A stretch of 64,000 nucleotides of DNA, taken from the NCBI RefSeq assembly GCF_001314325.1, contig NZ_CP009429.1, forward strand, positions 1,488,501 to 1,552,500. Reading direction: 5' to 3'. The notes below the pieces were generated by a model. It made no database searches. It worked only from the letters and a program-made list of their open reading frames with translations, and had not been told where the DNA came from. This DNA is from Sphingopyxis macrogoltabida. GTDB lineage: Bacteria; Pseudomonadota; Alphaproteobacteria; Sphingomonadales; Sphingomonadaceae. The stretch's first letter is position 1; each line of letters opens with the position of its first letter. The position numbers and the translations under genes are program-made. Of this stretch, positions 32,253-43,205 are shown piece after piece.

Positions 32253-33446
32253 TCAGAACAGCTTGGTCACCGTCGCGCTGCGGCGTTCCGGTTCGGTTTC
32301 GCCGGTGTAGAGGCTCACCATCGGTTCGTCGCTGACGACGTGGATTTCCTCCGCCCCGAACCCATTGAACTTCGTCCGCATCGCGCAGCCATAGGCGCCG
32401 AGCATGCCGATTTCGATGAAATCGCCAGCCTTGATATCGTCGGGCAGGAAGAAAGGCCCGGCCATATGGTCGAGGTCGTCGCAGGTCGGACCGTAAAAGC
32501 TGAACGCCGTCATTTCCGCGTCGCTCTTGCCTTCGCGAAGCAGGCTGACCGGAAAGCGCCAGCCGACATGCGCGGCGTCGAACAACGCGCCATAGGCACC
32601 GTCGTTGATATAGAGTTCCTCGCCGCGGCGCTTTTCGACACGGACGATCAGCGAGCTATACTCGGCCGACAGCGCGCGGCCCGGTTCGCACCAGAGTTCG
32701 GCCGAATAGCTGATCGGCAGGCTTTCGAAGCTGCGATGGATCGTCTCGAAATAGGCGTCGAGCGGCGGCGGCTCCATGCCCGGATAGCTCGACGGGAAGC
32801 CGCCCCCGACATCGATGATGTCGACGGTCACCGACGCCGCGACGATCGCGGCGCGAACGCGTTCCATCGCCTGCGCATAGGCATGCGGGGTCATCGCCTG
32901 GCTGCCGACATGGAAGCAGATGCCGAGCGCGTCGCTGGCCTGGCGCGTCGCCATCAGCAGTTCGGCGACCTCGTCGGCTTCTGCGCCGAACTTGGCGGCG
33001 AGGCTGAGCTTCGAATGGTCGGACGAGACGCGGAGGCGGACCAGCAGGTTGAGATCCTGCGCGCCTTCGGTGGCGCGGACGATCTTCTCCAGCTCTTCCA
33101 TCGTGTCGAGCGAGAAGGTGCGGACGCCATGCTTCCAATAGGCTTCGGAAATCGCTTCCTCGGCCTTCACCGGATGCATGAAACAGAGCGTCGCTTTCGG
33201 CAGGGTGCGCGCGACGAGGCGCACCTCGGCGATCGAGGCGACGTCATAATGGGTGACGCCCGAATCCCACAGCACGCGCAAGAGGTCGGGCGACGGATTC
33301 GCCTTGACCGCATACATGGTCGTGCCGGGAAATCGCTCGATGAAGAAACGCGCTGCGCGCGCCGCGGCGTGCGGGCGGACAAGCGTAACAGGTTCGACCG
33401 GCGAAAGTGCCTGAATCAGCCCGTGGGCGCTATGATGCTGGTGCAA
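32253..33446 (-). CDS. speC: Type III PLP-dependent ornithine (or ornithine/lysine) decarboxylase
   Basis: Decarboxylates ornithine to putrescine, the first step of polyamine synthesis. The alanine-racemase-type fold is shown by YAVKANPSP (PLP Lys48), FHVGSQ, the glycine-rich DVGGGFPSSYPGM, CEPGRAL and the active-site Cys in YGPTCDDLDHM. Lysine activity cannot be excluded. In this frame no ATG or GTG exists between the upstream stop (33471-33473) and the conserved core; the only start is TTG at 33446, which sits 9 nt after a GGGGG stretch buried in a leader stem. Polyamine genes at 35341 and 39093 continue the pathway. In alphaproteobacterial literature this gene is also called speF. Confidence 0.9.
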   Translation of the reverse strand: MHQHHSAHGLIQALSPVEPVTLVRPHAAARAARFFIERFPGTTMYAVKANPSPDLLRVLWDSGVTHYDVASIAEVRLVARTLPKATLCFMHPVKAEEAISEAYWKHGVRTFSLDTMEELEKIVRATEGAQDLNLLVRLRVSSDHSKLSLAAKFGAEADEVAELLMATRQASDALGICFHVGSQAMTPHAYAQAMERVRAAIVAASVTVDIIDVGGGFPSSYPGMEPPPLDAYFETIHRSFESLPISYSAELWCEPGRALSAEYSSLIVRVEKRRGEELYINDGAYGALFDAAHVGWRFPVSLLREGKSDAEMTAFSFYGPTCDDLDHMAGPFFLPDDIKAGDFIEIGMLGAYGCAMRTKFNGFGAEEIHVVSDEPMVSLYTGETEPERRSATVTKLF

Positions 33447-33478
33447 CTCAAGGGACCCCCAAAAAATACGTTAAACAT
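33416..33478 (-). CDS. Possible 20-codon leader ORF overlapping the decarboxylase start
   Basis: An ATG at 33478 opens a 20-residue frame beginning MFNVFFGG and ending at TGA 33416-33418, in a different frame from the decarboxylase and crossing its TTG start by 31 nt. Its ATG lies in the loop of the C-D stem. No clear ribosome site precedes it. Translation could open the stem that masks the decarboxylase start, but this may also be a chance frame. Confidence 0.3.
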   Translation of the reverse strand: MFNVFFGGPLSCTSIIAPTG

Positions 33479-33552
33479 CCAAGGCTGCCTTGCGGTTATT
33501 GGAAGTCCCCCTGGGGCAGCGGAGGGCGATATATGCAGGGGGGTCCCCCCTG
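33447..33552 (-). promoter_or_regulatory. Structured mRNA leader of ornithine decarboxylase (speF-leader-like)
   Basis: Read on the minus strand, four segments can pair: A 33552-33546 (CAGGGGG), B 33542-33536 (CCCCCUG), C 33513-33507 (CAGGGGG) and D 33460-33450 (GGGGGUCCCUU, which includes the ribosome-binding site). B can pair perfectly with A or with C; C can also join an 11-pair stem with D that hides the site. The two folds exclude each other, as in a translational riboswitch or attenuator. Position upstream of ornithine decarboxylase matches the speF leader class described in alphaproteobacteria; identity with it is inferred, not tested. Confidence 0.6.
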
Positions 33553-33701
33553 TAAAGACCCTTTGGCGCAATTTTGTAATAAGCCGGTAACAGTGGGGCC
33601 GAACCGGGGCTGACGTGCGCCAGACCGCGCAAATGCAAGACAAGTCCCGATCGTCGCGCTAGGCTTGGCGCATCGATAAAACCGGAAAGGACCGCCCCGC
33701 C

Positions 33702-35360
33702 ATGGTCTCGCGCGCCGACGTGAATCACGATTTTTCCGACGCCGAACTGGAAGAGCTTGCGGGGTTCGGAACCATCGAATCGCACAAGGCGGGCGACCTG
33801 CTCGTCGAGGAGGGCGCGATGGCGCCCGACTGCATCGTCACCCTGTCGGGCCATACCGACATCTTCGCCTCGACCGACGAAGGGCGCAAGCGCGTCGGCT
33901 GGATGGAGCGTGGCCAGTTCGCTGGCGATCTGTCGGTGCTGACCGGGCAGCGCCATCTGTCGCGCGTCGAAATGGGCGCCGACGGCGATATCCTGCGGAT
34001 CGCGCACGGCGATTTCCAGCGCCTGATCGCGGGCAATTCCCATTATTCCGACATCTTCGTTCGCGTCCTGTCGGCGCGCCGCGAGTTCAGCAACACGCGC
34101 GGATTCGCGGTCACGATCGTGATCGGTGCGGCGATGGACCGCAGCGTCTATGCGCTGCGTGACCTGCTGATGAAGCATGGCGTAGCGCATCGCTGGTTCG
34201 ATCCGGCCGACGGGCCGGTCGCGGCGCATCTGATGGCCGAACGCGGACTGACCGAAGCCGATCTGCCCGCGGTCATTCTCGGCGCCGCCGACGTGCTGGT
34301 CCAGCCGACGCCCGAACAGCTCGCGGCGGGGCTCGGGCTCGATCTGCTCCCCGACGGGGCGACCGCCGATGTGCTCGTCGTCGGCAGCGGCCCGGGCGGG
34401 CTCGCAGCAGCTGTCTATGCGGCATCGGAGGGGCTGACGGTGATCGCGCTCGACGCGCTGGCGCCGGGCGGGCAGGCCGGGACATCGTCGAAGATCGAAA
34501 ATTACCTCGGCTTCCCGACCGGCATTTCGGGCAACGAGCTGGCGCGGCGTGCGACGGTGCAAGCTCAGAAATTCGGCGCGCGGCTGGTGGCGCCGGTGCG
34601 CGCGGCGTCGATTGGGCGCGACGGCGACGCCTATTGCCTCCATCTCGCCGACGGGCGCAAGCTGCGTAGCCGCGCGGTCGTCGTTGCCAGCGGGGCGCAA
34701 TATCAGCGGCTGCCGATCGACGGCATCGAGGCCTATGAGGGCCGCGGCATCTATTATGGCGCGACGCCGATGGAAGCGCAGCTCTGCGGTAATGCCGAGG
34801 TCACCGTCGTCGGTGCGGGCAATTCGGCGGGACAGGGCGCCATCTATCTCGCGAGCGTCGCGAAGAAGGTGCATGTCATCTTTCGCCGGTCGAGCCTGCG
34901 CGACACCATGTCCGAATATCTGGTCAAGCGGCTGGAGGAGCATCCGAATATCGAGATCATTCCGTCGACCGATGTCACCGCGCTGCACGGCGAGGAGGGA
35001 TTGGTCGGGCTGACCTATCGTTGCCGCGAGACCGGCGCCGAGGGCCATTGCGACTGCCGCTTCCTGTTCCTCTTCCTCGGCGCCAGCCCCAACACCGGCT
35101 GGCTGCCGCGCGAAATGGTCTGCGACGAGCGCGGTTTCGTGAAGACCGGCGCCGATATCGCGCCGATGGAGCTGGTCAAGGCGGGCTGGTCGCTCGACCG
35201 CATGCCGAGCCGCTACGAGACGAGCTGGCCGCGCATCTACGCTATCGGTGACGTGCGCAAGGGATCGGTCAAGCGCGTCGCGTCGTCGGTAGGCGAGGGG
35301 TCGGTGGTGGTCAGCGACATCCATCAGGCGCTGGCGGAGATCATCCCAGCCGCGTCTTGA
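33702..35360 (+). CDS. Cyclic-nucleotide-binding/thioredoxin-reductase-like FAD oxidoreductase
   Basis: A 552-residue three-part protein. Residues about 5-115 form a cNMP-binding-type barrel (GDLLVEEGAMAPDCIVTLSG), about 135-205 a glutaredoxin/thioredoxin-fold-like segment (ALRDLLMKHGVAHRWFD), and from about 222 a thioredoxin-reductase-type module with FAD motif VVGSGPGGLAAAVYA and NAD(P)H motif VVGAGNSAGQGA near 369. Where thioredoxin reductases carry the CxxC redox pair, this protein reads GRGIYYGATPMEA (about 347-359), with no cysteine. It may act as an NADPH oxidase or sensor rather than a disulfide reductase. ATG 33702 follows GGAAAGGA. Its end overlaps the convergent nspC by 20 nt. Confidence 0.85.
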   Translation: MVSRADVNHDFSDAELEELAGFGTIESHKAGDLLVEEGAMAPDCIVTLSGHTDIFASTDEGRKRVGWMERGQFAGDLSVLTGQRHLSRVEMGADGDILRIAHGDFQRLIAGNSHYSDIFVRVLSARREFSNTRGFAVTIVIGAAMDRSVYALRDLLMKHGVAHRWFDPADGPVAAHLMAERGLTEADLPAVILGAADVLVQPTPEQLAAGLGLDLLPDGATADVLVVGSGPGGLAAAVYAASEGLTVIALDALAPGGQAGTSSKIENYLGFPTGISGNELARRATVQAQKFGARLVAPVRAASIGRDGDAYCLHLADGRKLRSRAVVVASGAQYQRLPIDGIEAYEGRGIYYGATPMEAQLCGNAEVTVVGAGNSAGQGAIYLASVAKKVHVIFRRSSLRDTMSEYLVKRLEEHPNIEIIPSTDVTALHGEEGLVGLTYRCRETGAEGHCDCRFLFLFLGASPNTGWLPREMVCDERGFVKTGADIAPMELVKAGWSLDRMPSRYETSWPRIYAIGDVRKGSVKRVASSVGEGSVVVSDIHQALAEIIPAAS

Positions 35361-36528
35361 AGTCCTCGTAGCCGAATTCGCGGACAAGCTTCAGTTCGTC
35401 GGTCTCGCTGTCCCACAGCCAGATCGACGGCAACGGCACGCCGTTGAAGCTGTTGGTCTTGACCATCGAATAATGCGCCTGGTCGAGGAAGGCGAAGCGC
35501 TGGCCGACGCGCGCGCCGCCGGGCAGGCGGTAGTCGCCGATCACGTCGCCCGCGAGGCACGACGGGCCGCCGAGGCGCGTCGGCATCCCCTCGCTGCCTT
35601 CGTCCAGCATCGCGGGGCGATAGGGCGCTTCGATCACATCGGGCATGTGGCAGGTCGCCGAAATGTCGGTGATGCCGATGGACATGCCGTTGTCGAAGAG
35701 GTCGAGCACTTCGCCGACGAGGATGCCGGCGTCAAGCGCGATTGCTTCGCCGGGTTCGATCATCACATCGCAGTCGGTCGCGGCGCGCACTTGCTTAAGA
35801 AAGGCGATGAGGTCGTCGGTCTGGTAATCGGCGCGGGTGACGTGGTGCCCGCCGCCGAAATTGATCCATTTGAGCCGCCCGAAGAAGGGGCGCAGCATCG
35901 GCTGGACGGCATTCCACGTCCGCTGGAGCGGCGGGAAATCCTGTTCGCACAGGCTGTGCATATGCACGCCGTCGACGCCCTCCAGATGTTCGGGCAGCAA
36001 TTGCGTGACGGGGAAGCCAAGGCGGCTGCACGGCGCCGCAGGGTCGTATTTGGCGACTTCGCCCTCGCTGTGCATCGGATTGATGCGCAGCCCGACGTCG
36101 AAGCGTTCGCCCCTCGCGCGAAGATCGTCGAGCAGCGGACGGAAGCGGGCGATCTGGCCGGGCGAATTGAAGATCAGATGATCCGACAGCCGCGCGATTT
36201 CGGGAAGATCGGCTTCCTTGTAACCGGCGCAATAGGTCGCGACCTCCTTGTCGCCCTGTGCACCGCCATATTCCTCGCGCCCGAGCTTCGCTTCGTAGAG
36301 CCCCGACGCGCAGACGCCGTCGAGATATGTCGCGACTGTCGGGCCGAGCGACCACATCGAAAAGGCCTTGAGTGCCGCGAGCACGCGGGCGCCGGAGGCG
36401 TCGCCGATGTGGCGTAGCACCGCCAGGTTCGCGCGTATCTTCGCCGCGTCGACGACGAAAGCGGGCGAGGGGACGCGGGTAAGGTCGAAGCGGGCAAACG
36501 CCCCGGGATCGCCGGCTCTGGTTTCCAT
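35341..36528 (-). CDS. nspC: Carboxynorspermidine/carboxyspermidine decarboxylase
   Basis: PLP-dependent decarboxylase converting carboxyspermidine (or carboxynorspermidine) to spermidine (or norspermidine). The 395-residue protein shows VLAALKAFSMWSL (PLP Lys54), LGLRINP-type strand DVGLRINPMHSEG, WINFGGGHHVTR, MIEPGEAI, GGPSCLAGDV (active-site Cys) and FLDQAHYSMVK. Together with the dehydrogenase at 39093 and the decarboxylase at 32253 it forms a route to spermidine that needs no S-adenosylmethionine decarboxylase. It is a distant relative of the ornithine decarboxylase fold. Confidence 0.93.
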   Translation of the reverse strand: METRAGDPGAFARFDLTRVPSPAFVVDAAKIRANLAVLRHIGDASGARVLAALKAFSMWSLGPTVATYLDGVCASGLYEAKLGREEYGGAQGDKEVATYCAGYKEADLPEIARLSDHLIFNSPGQIARFRPLLDDLRARGERFDVGLRINPMHSEGEVAKYDPAAPCSRLGFPVTQLLPEHLEGVDGVHMHSLCEQDFPPLQRTWNAVQPMLRPFFGRLKWINFGGGHHVTRADYQTDDLIAFLKQVRAATDCDVMIEPGEAIALDAGILVGEVLDLFDNGMSIGITDISATCHMPDVIEAPYRPAMLDEGSEGMPTRLGGPSCLAGDVIGDYRLPGGARVGQRFAFLDQAHYSMVKTNSFNGVPLPSIWLWDSETDELKLVREFGYEDFKTRLG

Positions 36529-39092: not shown

Positions 39093-40301
<1,209 letters not shown>

Positions 40302-41984: not shown

Positions 41985-43205
41985 ATGGCCAGGCAGCCCA
42001 ACCGCAAGATCGCCGCGGCGGTCGTCCGGGAAGACGCAGAGCAGAAACAGCGCCTGCTCGATCGCGCTTTCGCTCTCGCCTTCAAGGGGCTGGTCTATGC
42101 CCAGATATGGGAAGATCCCGTCGTCGACATGGAAGCGCTGGCGATTGAGCCGGGCAACCGGATCGCGACGATCGCGAGCGGCGGGTGCAACGTCTTTTCC
42201 TATCTGGTCGGCGATCCGGCAGAGATCGTCGCGGTCGACCTCAACACTGCGCATGTCGCGCTGAATCACCTGAAACGCGTGGCGATCCAGCGGTTGCCCG
42301 ACTACAACAGCTTCCGCCGCTTCTTTGTCGATGCCGACAGCGCCGCCAACATCGCCGACTATCGTGCCTTTGTTCGCCCGCATCTCGATGAGGTCAGCCG
42401 GCGCTATTGGGAGGGGCGCGACCTTGTCGGTCGCCGCCGGATCAACGGCTTTGCGCACGGGCTTTACAAGCGCGGCCTGCTCGGCAATTTCATCGGGGTC
42501 GCGCATCTGGTGGCGCGGATGCACCGCATCGATTTGCGCCAGTTCCTCGAAGCGAAGACGATCGAGGAACAGCGGACGATCTTCGACACGAAGCTGGCGC
42601 CGTTTTTCGACCGCAAGTTCATTCGCTGGATCACCGACCAGCGCTCGTCGCTCTTCGGACTCGGTATTCCGCCGGCCCAATATGACGCACTTGCGGACGG
42701 CAAGCCGATGGCGGACGTGTTGCGCGCCCGACTGGAAAAGCTCGCCTGCGACTTTCCGCTCGAAGAGAATTATTTTGCCTGGCAGGCGTTCGGACGGCGT
42801 TACGGCAGGGGCATCAAGGCACCATTGCCGCCCTATTTGCAGGCGGAAAACCACGCAGTGGTCAGGGATCGCGCTGCGCGGGTGACGATGCTGCATGCGA
42901 ATATGACCGACATGCTCGCCGCGGCCGACGCAGCGAGTTTCGACCGTTATGTGTTTCTCGACGCGCAGGACTGGATGAACGACGTGCAGCTGACCGCATT
43001 GTGGGCCGAGGTTAGCCGCACCGCACGGCCCGGCGCCCGCGTGCTGTTTCGCACGGCCGCCGAACCGAGCTTGCTGCCGGGGCGCTTGCCAGAGGCGCTG
43101 CTCGACCGCTGGGAATATCGCGACGAGGCGTCACGGGACTATACCCGCCGCGATCGTTCGGCCATTTATGGCGGCGTACATCTCTATGTTCTGAAGGCCG
43201 CATGA
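41985..43205 (+). CDS. btaA: S-adenosylmethionine:diacylglycerol 3-amino-3-carboxypropyltransferase
   Basis: First enzyme of betaine lipid (diacylglyceryl-trimethylhomoserine) synthesis; it moves the aminocarboxypropyl group of SAM to diacylglycerol. The 406-residue DUF3419 protein shows YAQIWEDPVVDMEAL near residue 38, the SAM-binding ATIASGGCNVFSYL and EIVAVDLNTAHVAL, and in the C-terminal half DRYVFLDAQDWMND. It is coupled by an ATGA overlap to the methyltransferase btaB, the known bacterial partner. Confidence 0.92.
   Translation: MARQPNRKIAAAVVREDAEQKQRLLDRAFALAFKGLVYAQIWEDPVVDMEALAIEPGNRIATIASGGCNVFSYLVGDPAEIVAVDLNTAHVALNHLKRVAIQRLPDYNSFRRFFVDADSAANIADYRAFVRPHLDEVSRRYWEGRDLVGRRRINGFAHGLYKRGLLGNFIGVAHLVARMHRIDLRQFLEAKTIEEQRTIFDTKLAPFFDRKFIRWITDQRSSLFGLGIPPAQYDALADGKPMADVLRARLEKLACDFPLEENYFAWQAFGRRYGRGIKAPLPPYLQAENHAVVRDRAARVTMLHANMTDMLAAADAASFDRYVFLDAQDWMNDVQLTALWAEVSRTARPGARVLFRTAAEPSLLPGRLPEALLDRWEYRDEASRDYTRRDRSAIYGGVHLYVLKAA

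Follow-up and report, generated by a model that had tools for sequence, protein, structure and literature searches.

An odc1-type leader with paired UUG starts and an overlapping uORF: candidate start-site control of ornithine decarboxylase in Sphingopyxis macrogoltabida

The gene and its leader

The window, a stretch of 64,000 nucleotides from Sphingopyxis macrogoltabida (contig NZ_CP009429.1, positions 1,488,501 to 1,552,500), contains on its minus strand a gene whose product carries the Orn_Arg_deC Pfam domains and is matched best, among solved chains, by lysine/ornithine decarboxylases. All NCBIfam models stayed below their cut-offs for this product (best lysA, 129.6 of 297.9 bits), and the gene is assigned here by family as an ornithine decarboxylase (ODC), the substrate being predicted. 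Two further genes on the same strand encode an nspC-like protein and a saccharopine-dehydrogenase-type protein, which we take to represent the carboxyspermidine route to spermidine, and a pfam02515 CoA transferase is among the next genes downstream of ODC.

32253..33446, minus strand: ornithine-decarboxylase-type PLP decarboxylase, 397 codons, UUG start (Pfam PF02784 and PF00278)
35341-36528, minus strand: nspC-like carboxynorspermidine decarboxylase (380.4 bits, below the model cut-off of 409)
39093-40301, minus strand: saccharopine-dehydrogenase-type gene

On the plus strand, the divergent neighbour at 33702-35360 joins a cyclic-nucleotide-binding domain to a thioredoxin-reductase-like domain, and 41985-43205 encodes a DUF3419 protein with a strong Pfam match.

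The region upstream of ODC holds the following elements, including four GC-rich segments, A to D, that had been singled out in an initial annotation of the locus.

33551..33556, minus strand: -35-like hexamer TTTACA (sequence and relatives)
33552-33546, minus strand: segment A, CAGGGGG (read from the sequence)
33534..33550, minus strand: 17-bp promoter spacer GGGGGGACCCCCCTGCA, which varies between genera
33542-33536, minus strand: segment B, CCCCCTG, complementary to A and also to C
33528..33533, minus strand: -10-like hexamer TATATC (comparison of leaders)
33519..33523, minus strand: approximate predicted transcription start (from the -10 to CGCTG distance)
33515..33520, minus strand: pseudoknot 5' strand GCUGCC, pairing with 33484-33489
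33513-33507, minus strand: segment C, CAGGGGG, which together with the bases after it pairs with D
33499..33511, minus strand: stem P1 5' strand GGGGGACUUCCAA, including most of segment C
33485..33496, minus strand: conserved loop ACCGCAAGGCAG, carrying most of the pseudoknot 3' strand
33484..33489, minus strand: pseudoknot 3' strand GGCAGC (pairing survey of relatives)
33463..33483, minus strand: variable linker; judged by eye, several relatives have an added hairpin here
33450..33462, minus strand: stem P1 3' strand UUGGGGGUCCCUU, holding segment D
33460-33450, minus strand: segment D, GGGGGTCCCTT, within the P1 3' strand
33456..33460, minus strand: Shine-Dalgarno-like GGGGG (GGAGG in many relatives)
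33416..33451, minus strand: uORF from UUG to UGA, MSCTSIIAPTG, 11 codons, overlapping the ODC start

Promoter-like element, stem P1 and pseudoknot

The initial annotation read segments A to D as a translational switch, in which A:B together with C:D would shut translation and B:C would open it. The positions of the segments and their complementarities (B to A, B to C and C to D) are as it described, while the pseudoknot, the second UUG start and the uORF are leader features that it did not contain. The final two bases of the -35-like hexamer fall in segment A, and the spacer at 33534..33550 contains all of segment B and five of the seven bases of A. Because both segments fall within the promoter-like TTTACA-17-TATATC, they are probably untranscribed, and A:B and B:C are unlikely to exist in the RNA. 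A strict scan for sigma-70 promoters gave 0 sites and did not call this element. In a survey of leaders, in which the best hexamers and spacing were chosen for each leader over spacings of 16-19, the best spacing was 17 in 174 of the 191 distinct leaders with enough upstream sequence and the best first hexamer was exactly TTTACA in 136 of them; the hexamer scores are partly selected by this choice of best match, whereas the preference for 17 among four spacings is not. The gap from the -10 to CGCTG was 6-8 nt in 169 of the 191 leaders, and in the window's leader about 7 bases separate the -10-like TATATC from GCUGCC.

A palindrome formed by a G-run and a C-run in the spacer (33534-33550) occurs across much of the genus, and some other genera have it too. 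Among the 118 distinct spacers that follow a TTTAC -35 at a spacing of 17, stems of at least 5 bp occur in 35, against about 8% in shuffles (relatedness not corrected), an excess that could reflect an operator or shared descent. This excess, and the complementarities present in the window itself, are what speaks for the alternating folds, but A and B lie in the promoter-like element, the spacer differs between genera, and the A:B stem is gone in some relatives of the same genus (L032 and L034, where the longest spacer stem is 1 and 2 bp). We consider a switch built from the four segments highly improbable.

The part of the initial annotation that holds up is the stem enclosing the ribosome site: segments C and D correspond to stem P1 of the published odc1 RNA, which covers the Shine-Dalgarno stretch. 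Pairing was surveyed in 198 leaders (195 distinct leaders plus three divergent ones included by hand), each strand being set at its best-pairing position, which favours pairing. All 10 tested pairs of P1 form in 175 of the 198, and at least 9 in 194. Where P1 varies, most changes affect one side only (one pair is found as U-A, U-G or C-G, the outer one as A-U and in a few cases U-A), and 0 pairs changed on both sides among 98 distinct rows. In those rows 99.5% of cells pair, a level reached by 21 of 500 shuffles; 7 of 500 shuffles matched or exceeded the covariation score of 0.081, and sliding the structure by one column still gave 0.078. Support for P1 from these alignments thus rests on conservation more than on covariation. 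Compensatory change in the four segments had been proposed as a check on the switch; C:D is conserved and shows no two-sided change, and A:B is lost in some relatives. The predicted folding energy of the leader was no better than chance (z +1.0 and +0.9).

The pseudoknot joins the 5' end of the leader to the P1 loop, with 6 of 6 pairs in 197 of the 198 leaders at the best-pairing place; the leader with a broken pseudoknot is L146. Two-sided variants are found in a few relatives, namely GCAGCC:GGCUGC in L234 and L235 and GCCGCC:GGCGGC in L225, alongside GUUGCC:GGUGAC in L226 and, by eye, GCUGCU:AGCAGU in L231, for which the pairing script took a neighbouring hexamer. The 3' strands of L225-L227 were set by hand, which favours pairing. 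The loop ACCGCAAGGCAG is invariant in 31 of 31 aligned leaders and broken in some divergent ones. By eye, an extra hairpin lies between the pseudoknot strand and P1 in L142, L225, L226, L232, L234 and L235, an insertion that the model of pseudoknot and P1 allows.

The overlapping uORF and its distribution

Two UUG starts lie 2 nt apart, at 33451 and 33446; the upstream one opens the uORF, whose stop falls 28 nt beyond the ODC start. This arrangement was surveyed at 237 loci, six speF loci being excluded on purpose, with a pattern that demanded two NTG-type starts, so that leaders lacking them would be missed. It returned 227 leaders, 195 of them distinct, and gave none at 10 loci (L159, L224-L227 and L239-L243, the last five from outside the family); L132 was too short for its stop to be read, leaving 194 distinct leaders. 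The start pair is UUG/UUG in 192 of these and AUG/AUG in 2, with mixed UUG/AUG pairs in 0 of the 194, though the search pattern permitted a mixture. The uORF is 11 codons long in 193 of the 194, and the one exception (L060) has a 9-codon uORF with a second stop still at codon 12.

Two groups of relatives depart from the common form. In L135, L231 and L252, AUG stands in place of both UUG starts (AUGAGAUG) and the 11-codon uORF is retained, while L061, like L060, combines a 9-codon uORF with a second stop at codon 12.

The position of the stop was further compared at the codon level in 174 leaders with at least 300 ODC codons, with relatedness corrected only in the tree counts. The codon-12 stop is present in all 174 genes and is the best of 736 alternative-frame columns, the next reaching 0.845. 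The uORF stop begins with the last two bases of main codon 10, and this codon reads CTA, GTA or TTA in 141 of the 174 genes, against 266 A-ending leucine or valine codons among 10,672 from codon 31 on. Synonymous resampling keeps a uORF length of 11 in a mean of 14% and a maximum of 19% of cases, compared with the 173 of 174 observed, and mapping onto the gene tree gives 0, 2 and 2 changes at the three stop positions, as opposed to 17 and 9 at the flanking bases. Two other candidates in this region were set aside: a conserved in-frame uORF from an upstream ATG (33478), whose start is missing in many relatives, and a coding-region hairpin around GCGCTGGGGCTAGC, suggested by a conserved CTAG and dropped because the uORF stop accounts for the CTAG.

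The initial annotation described a leader of an ornithine decarboxylase gene, and this leader is conserved. Matches to the leader sequence were found in 34 of 60 genomes (own genome counted), all of the same genus, and the leader core recurs across the window's family, Sphingomonadaceae. A leader model (R1) built on 15 short-form leaders matches, under strict filters, 186 of 199 sampled family genomes and 93 of 96 genera; in a sample of the class, where such filters can lose weak matches, it matches 5 of 385 genomes, all five from the window's family. At five ODC loci outside the family (L239-L243), no leader-model match was found at E up to 10. Of the 13 family genomes in which the leader model finds nothing, 3 also lack an ODC match at E 1e-60; at the other 10 loci, 8 leaders were readable and 2 (L244 and L253) were not, their pieces being cut short upstream of the gene, as judged from their lengths. 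The 11-codon uORF is kept in five of the eight readable leaders (L245, L246, L247, L249 and L252), including L247, in which neither P1 nor the pseudoknot is visible by eye, while the uORF extends to 22 codons in L248 and 16 in L250 and runs without a stop through the part of L251 that was read. These four relatives (L247, L248, L250 and L251) have an RNA core of degenerate appearance, and from their patterns the fold and the stop can therefore come apart.

Class identity and candidate mechanisms

In the pseudoknot riboswitches SAM-II and preQ1, a pseudoknot hides the ribosome site, a likeness to the leader described here; the window differs in that no Rfam family matched it at gathering score, and at E up to 10 the leader matched two snoRNA families only, taken as chance. 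The initial annotation had assigned the leader, as probable, to the alphaproteobacterial speF class. However, a covariance search with RF00518 was negative in the window (gathering score), in the leader (E up to 10) and in the whole genome, though in a sample of 190 genomes of the class that model gave matches in 6, of which 4 exceeded its cut-off. Leader model R1, for its part, has no hit at E up to 10 in six speF loci (L070-L075). The speF leader (RF00518; Corbino et al. 2005, PMC1273637) likewise precedes an ornithine decarboxylase gene (COG0019) in alphaproteobacteria, but it is much longer, the probed RNA being about 400 nt, and the available part of its description has no UUG pair. Membership of the speF class has next to no chance of being correct. 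The spermidine riboswitch (PMC10853860) is likewise a polyamine-related bacterial RNA control, but it is a variant of a SAM aptamer, and in its main text neither odc1 nor ornithine decarboxylase occurs as a term.

The leader is counted here as a member of the published odc1 (uORF-25-1) class, since all the features described in the odc1 section of that report (Brewer et al. 2021, PMC8632094; tested representative from Sphingomonas) are present. These are a stem P1 with the ribosome-binding site in its 3' side (here 33499-33511 with 33450-33462), a pseudoknot of the 5' end with the P1 loop (here GCUGCC:GGCAGC, for which a few relatives show compensatory changes), two UUG starts 2 nt apart (UUG-N2-UUG, at 33451 and 33446), an 11-aa uORF (here MSCTSIIAPTG) and an ornithine decarboxylase downstream, which the window's gene is by family, NCBIfam not naming it at its cut-off; the pfam02515 CoA transferase has also been reported with the motif (PMC8632094). 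The window's leader differs from many of the relatives collected here, rather than from the published figure, in its MSCTSIIAPTG peptide with a UGA stop, in having GGGGG in P1 where others have GGAGG, and in a loop that exceeds the short form by about 3 nt. The peptide length given as constant in PMC8632094 has exceptions among our relatives. The class itself is already known. The fixed stop, the joint change of both starts and the promoter-flush 5' end do not appear in the odc1 section of that report.

Sequence comparison brings out the promoter-like layout, the covariation of the pseudoknot, the conservation of P1, the paired starts and the fixed position of the stop. The reading that we favour, with moderate confidence, is an odc1 RNA that controls ornithine decarboxylase at the level of translation, through the choice of start site, the uORF serving as a decoy. 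Transcription would start just before GCUGCC, and this 5' end would pair with GGCAGC in the P1 loop to form the pseudoknot, while P1 (GGGACUUCC with GGGGGUCCC) would cover the Shine-Dalgarno stretch common to the two UUG starts. When P1 opens, ribosomes would choose between the 11-codon uORF and ornithine decarboxylase, with the uORF presumably acting as an overlapping decoy whose stop lies at a fixed place 28 nt past the ODC start; a ribosome starting, translating or terminating on it may interfere with, or hand over to, the ODC start. The RNA fold would in this way set the amount of ODC, most plausibly as feedback on polyamine supply, a signal that is plausible from the gene alone. Reporters of the S. 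echinoides leader in E. coli show that both starts are used, the uORF being expressed at about three times the level of the main start (PMC8632094). Main-ORF expression was lost on three changes to conserved bases next to the pseudoknot, two of which had little effect on the uORF, and minimal medium gave higher levels of both reporters than rich medium did (PMC8632094).

Other mechanisms could account for parts of this pattern. In a metabolite riboswitch, a polyamine, ornithine or another compound would bind the pseudoknotted loop, close P1 and shut both starts, which would suit the compact pseudoknot and the strongly conserved loop over the ribosome site. PMC8632094 names this as one possibility, and its higher reporter levels in minimal medium are in line with it; yet it has no known ligand, the term "odc1 motif" was found in PMC8632094 alone in the literature searched, and the different speF RNA was negative in in-line probing with ornithine, putrescine, cadaverine, spermidine and others (PMC1273637). 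A riboswitch therefore has an appreciable chance of being the answer, though we lean away from it. Strong conservation of the loop would suit protein binding no less than ligand binding, and a leader bound at its pseudoknot by a regulator or by ODC itself, which would then control translation, is conceivable and rather unlikely. Slightly less likely again is an arrest peptide, in which the uORF product would sense polyamine or ornithine in the exit tunnel, stall the ribosome and block ODC. The nearly constant length of 11 codons would agree with this, as would the entropy ratio of 0.686 in the uORF frame, since 63 control stretches ranged from 0.711 to 1.023. The same region read in the third frame is just as low, however, at 0.681, so that constraint on the peptide is inseparable from constraint on the bases. 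The peptide C-termini also differ among leaders (RWG, PTG, HRL and HWL), and one distinct leader, L060, has a uORF of only 9 codons. Judged from the alignments, selection looks to act on the stop position and the bases, and not clearly on the peptide.

Within the start-site control that we favour, we tentatively suggest, as a minority view even to ourselves, that the constant site at which the overlapping uORF terminates, 28 nt past the ODC start, is the selected feature rather than the peptide. The fixed stop position, the joint UUG to AUG change and the promoter-flush 5' end offer experimental handles on the element. In 186 of the 199 family genomes sampled, it stands upstream of the gene for the first step in polyamine synthesis, and if the suggestion is true, odc1 would be a bacterial start-site selector in which the position of termination and the pseudoknot tune an upstream-overlapped start, and the mRNA would choose between a throw-away peptide and a metabolic enzyme.
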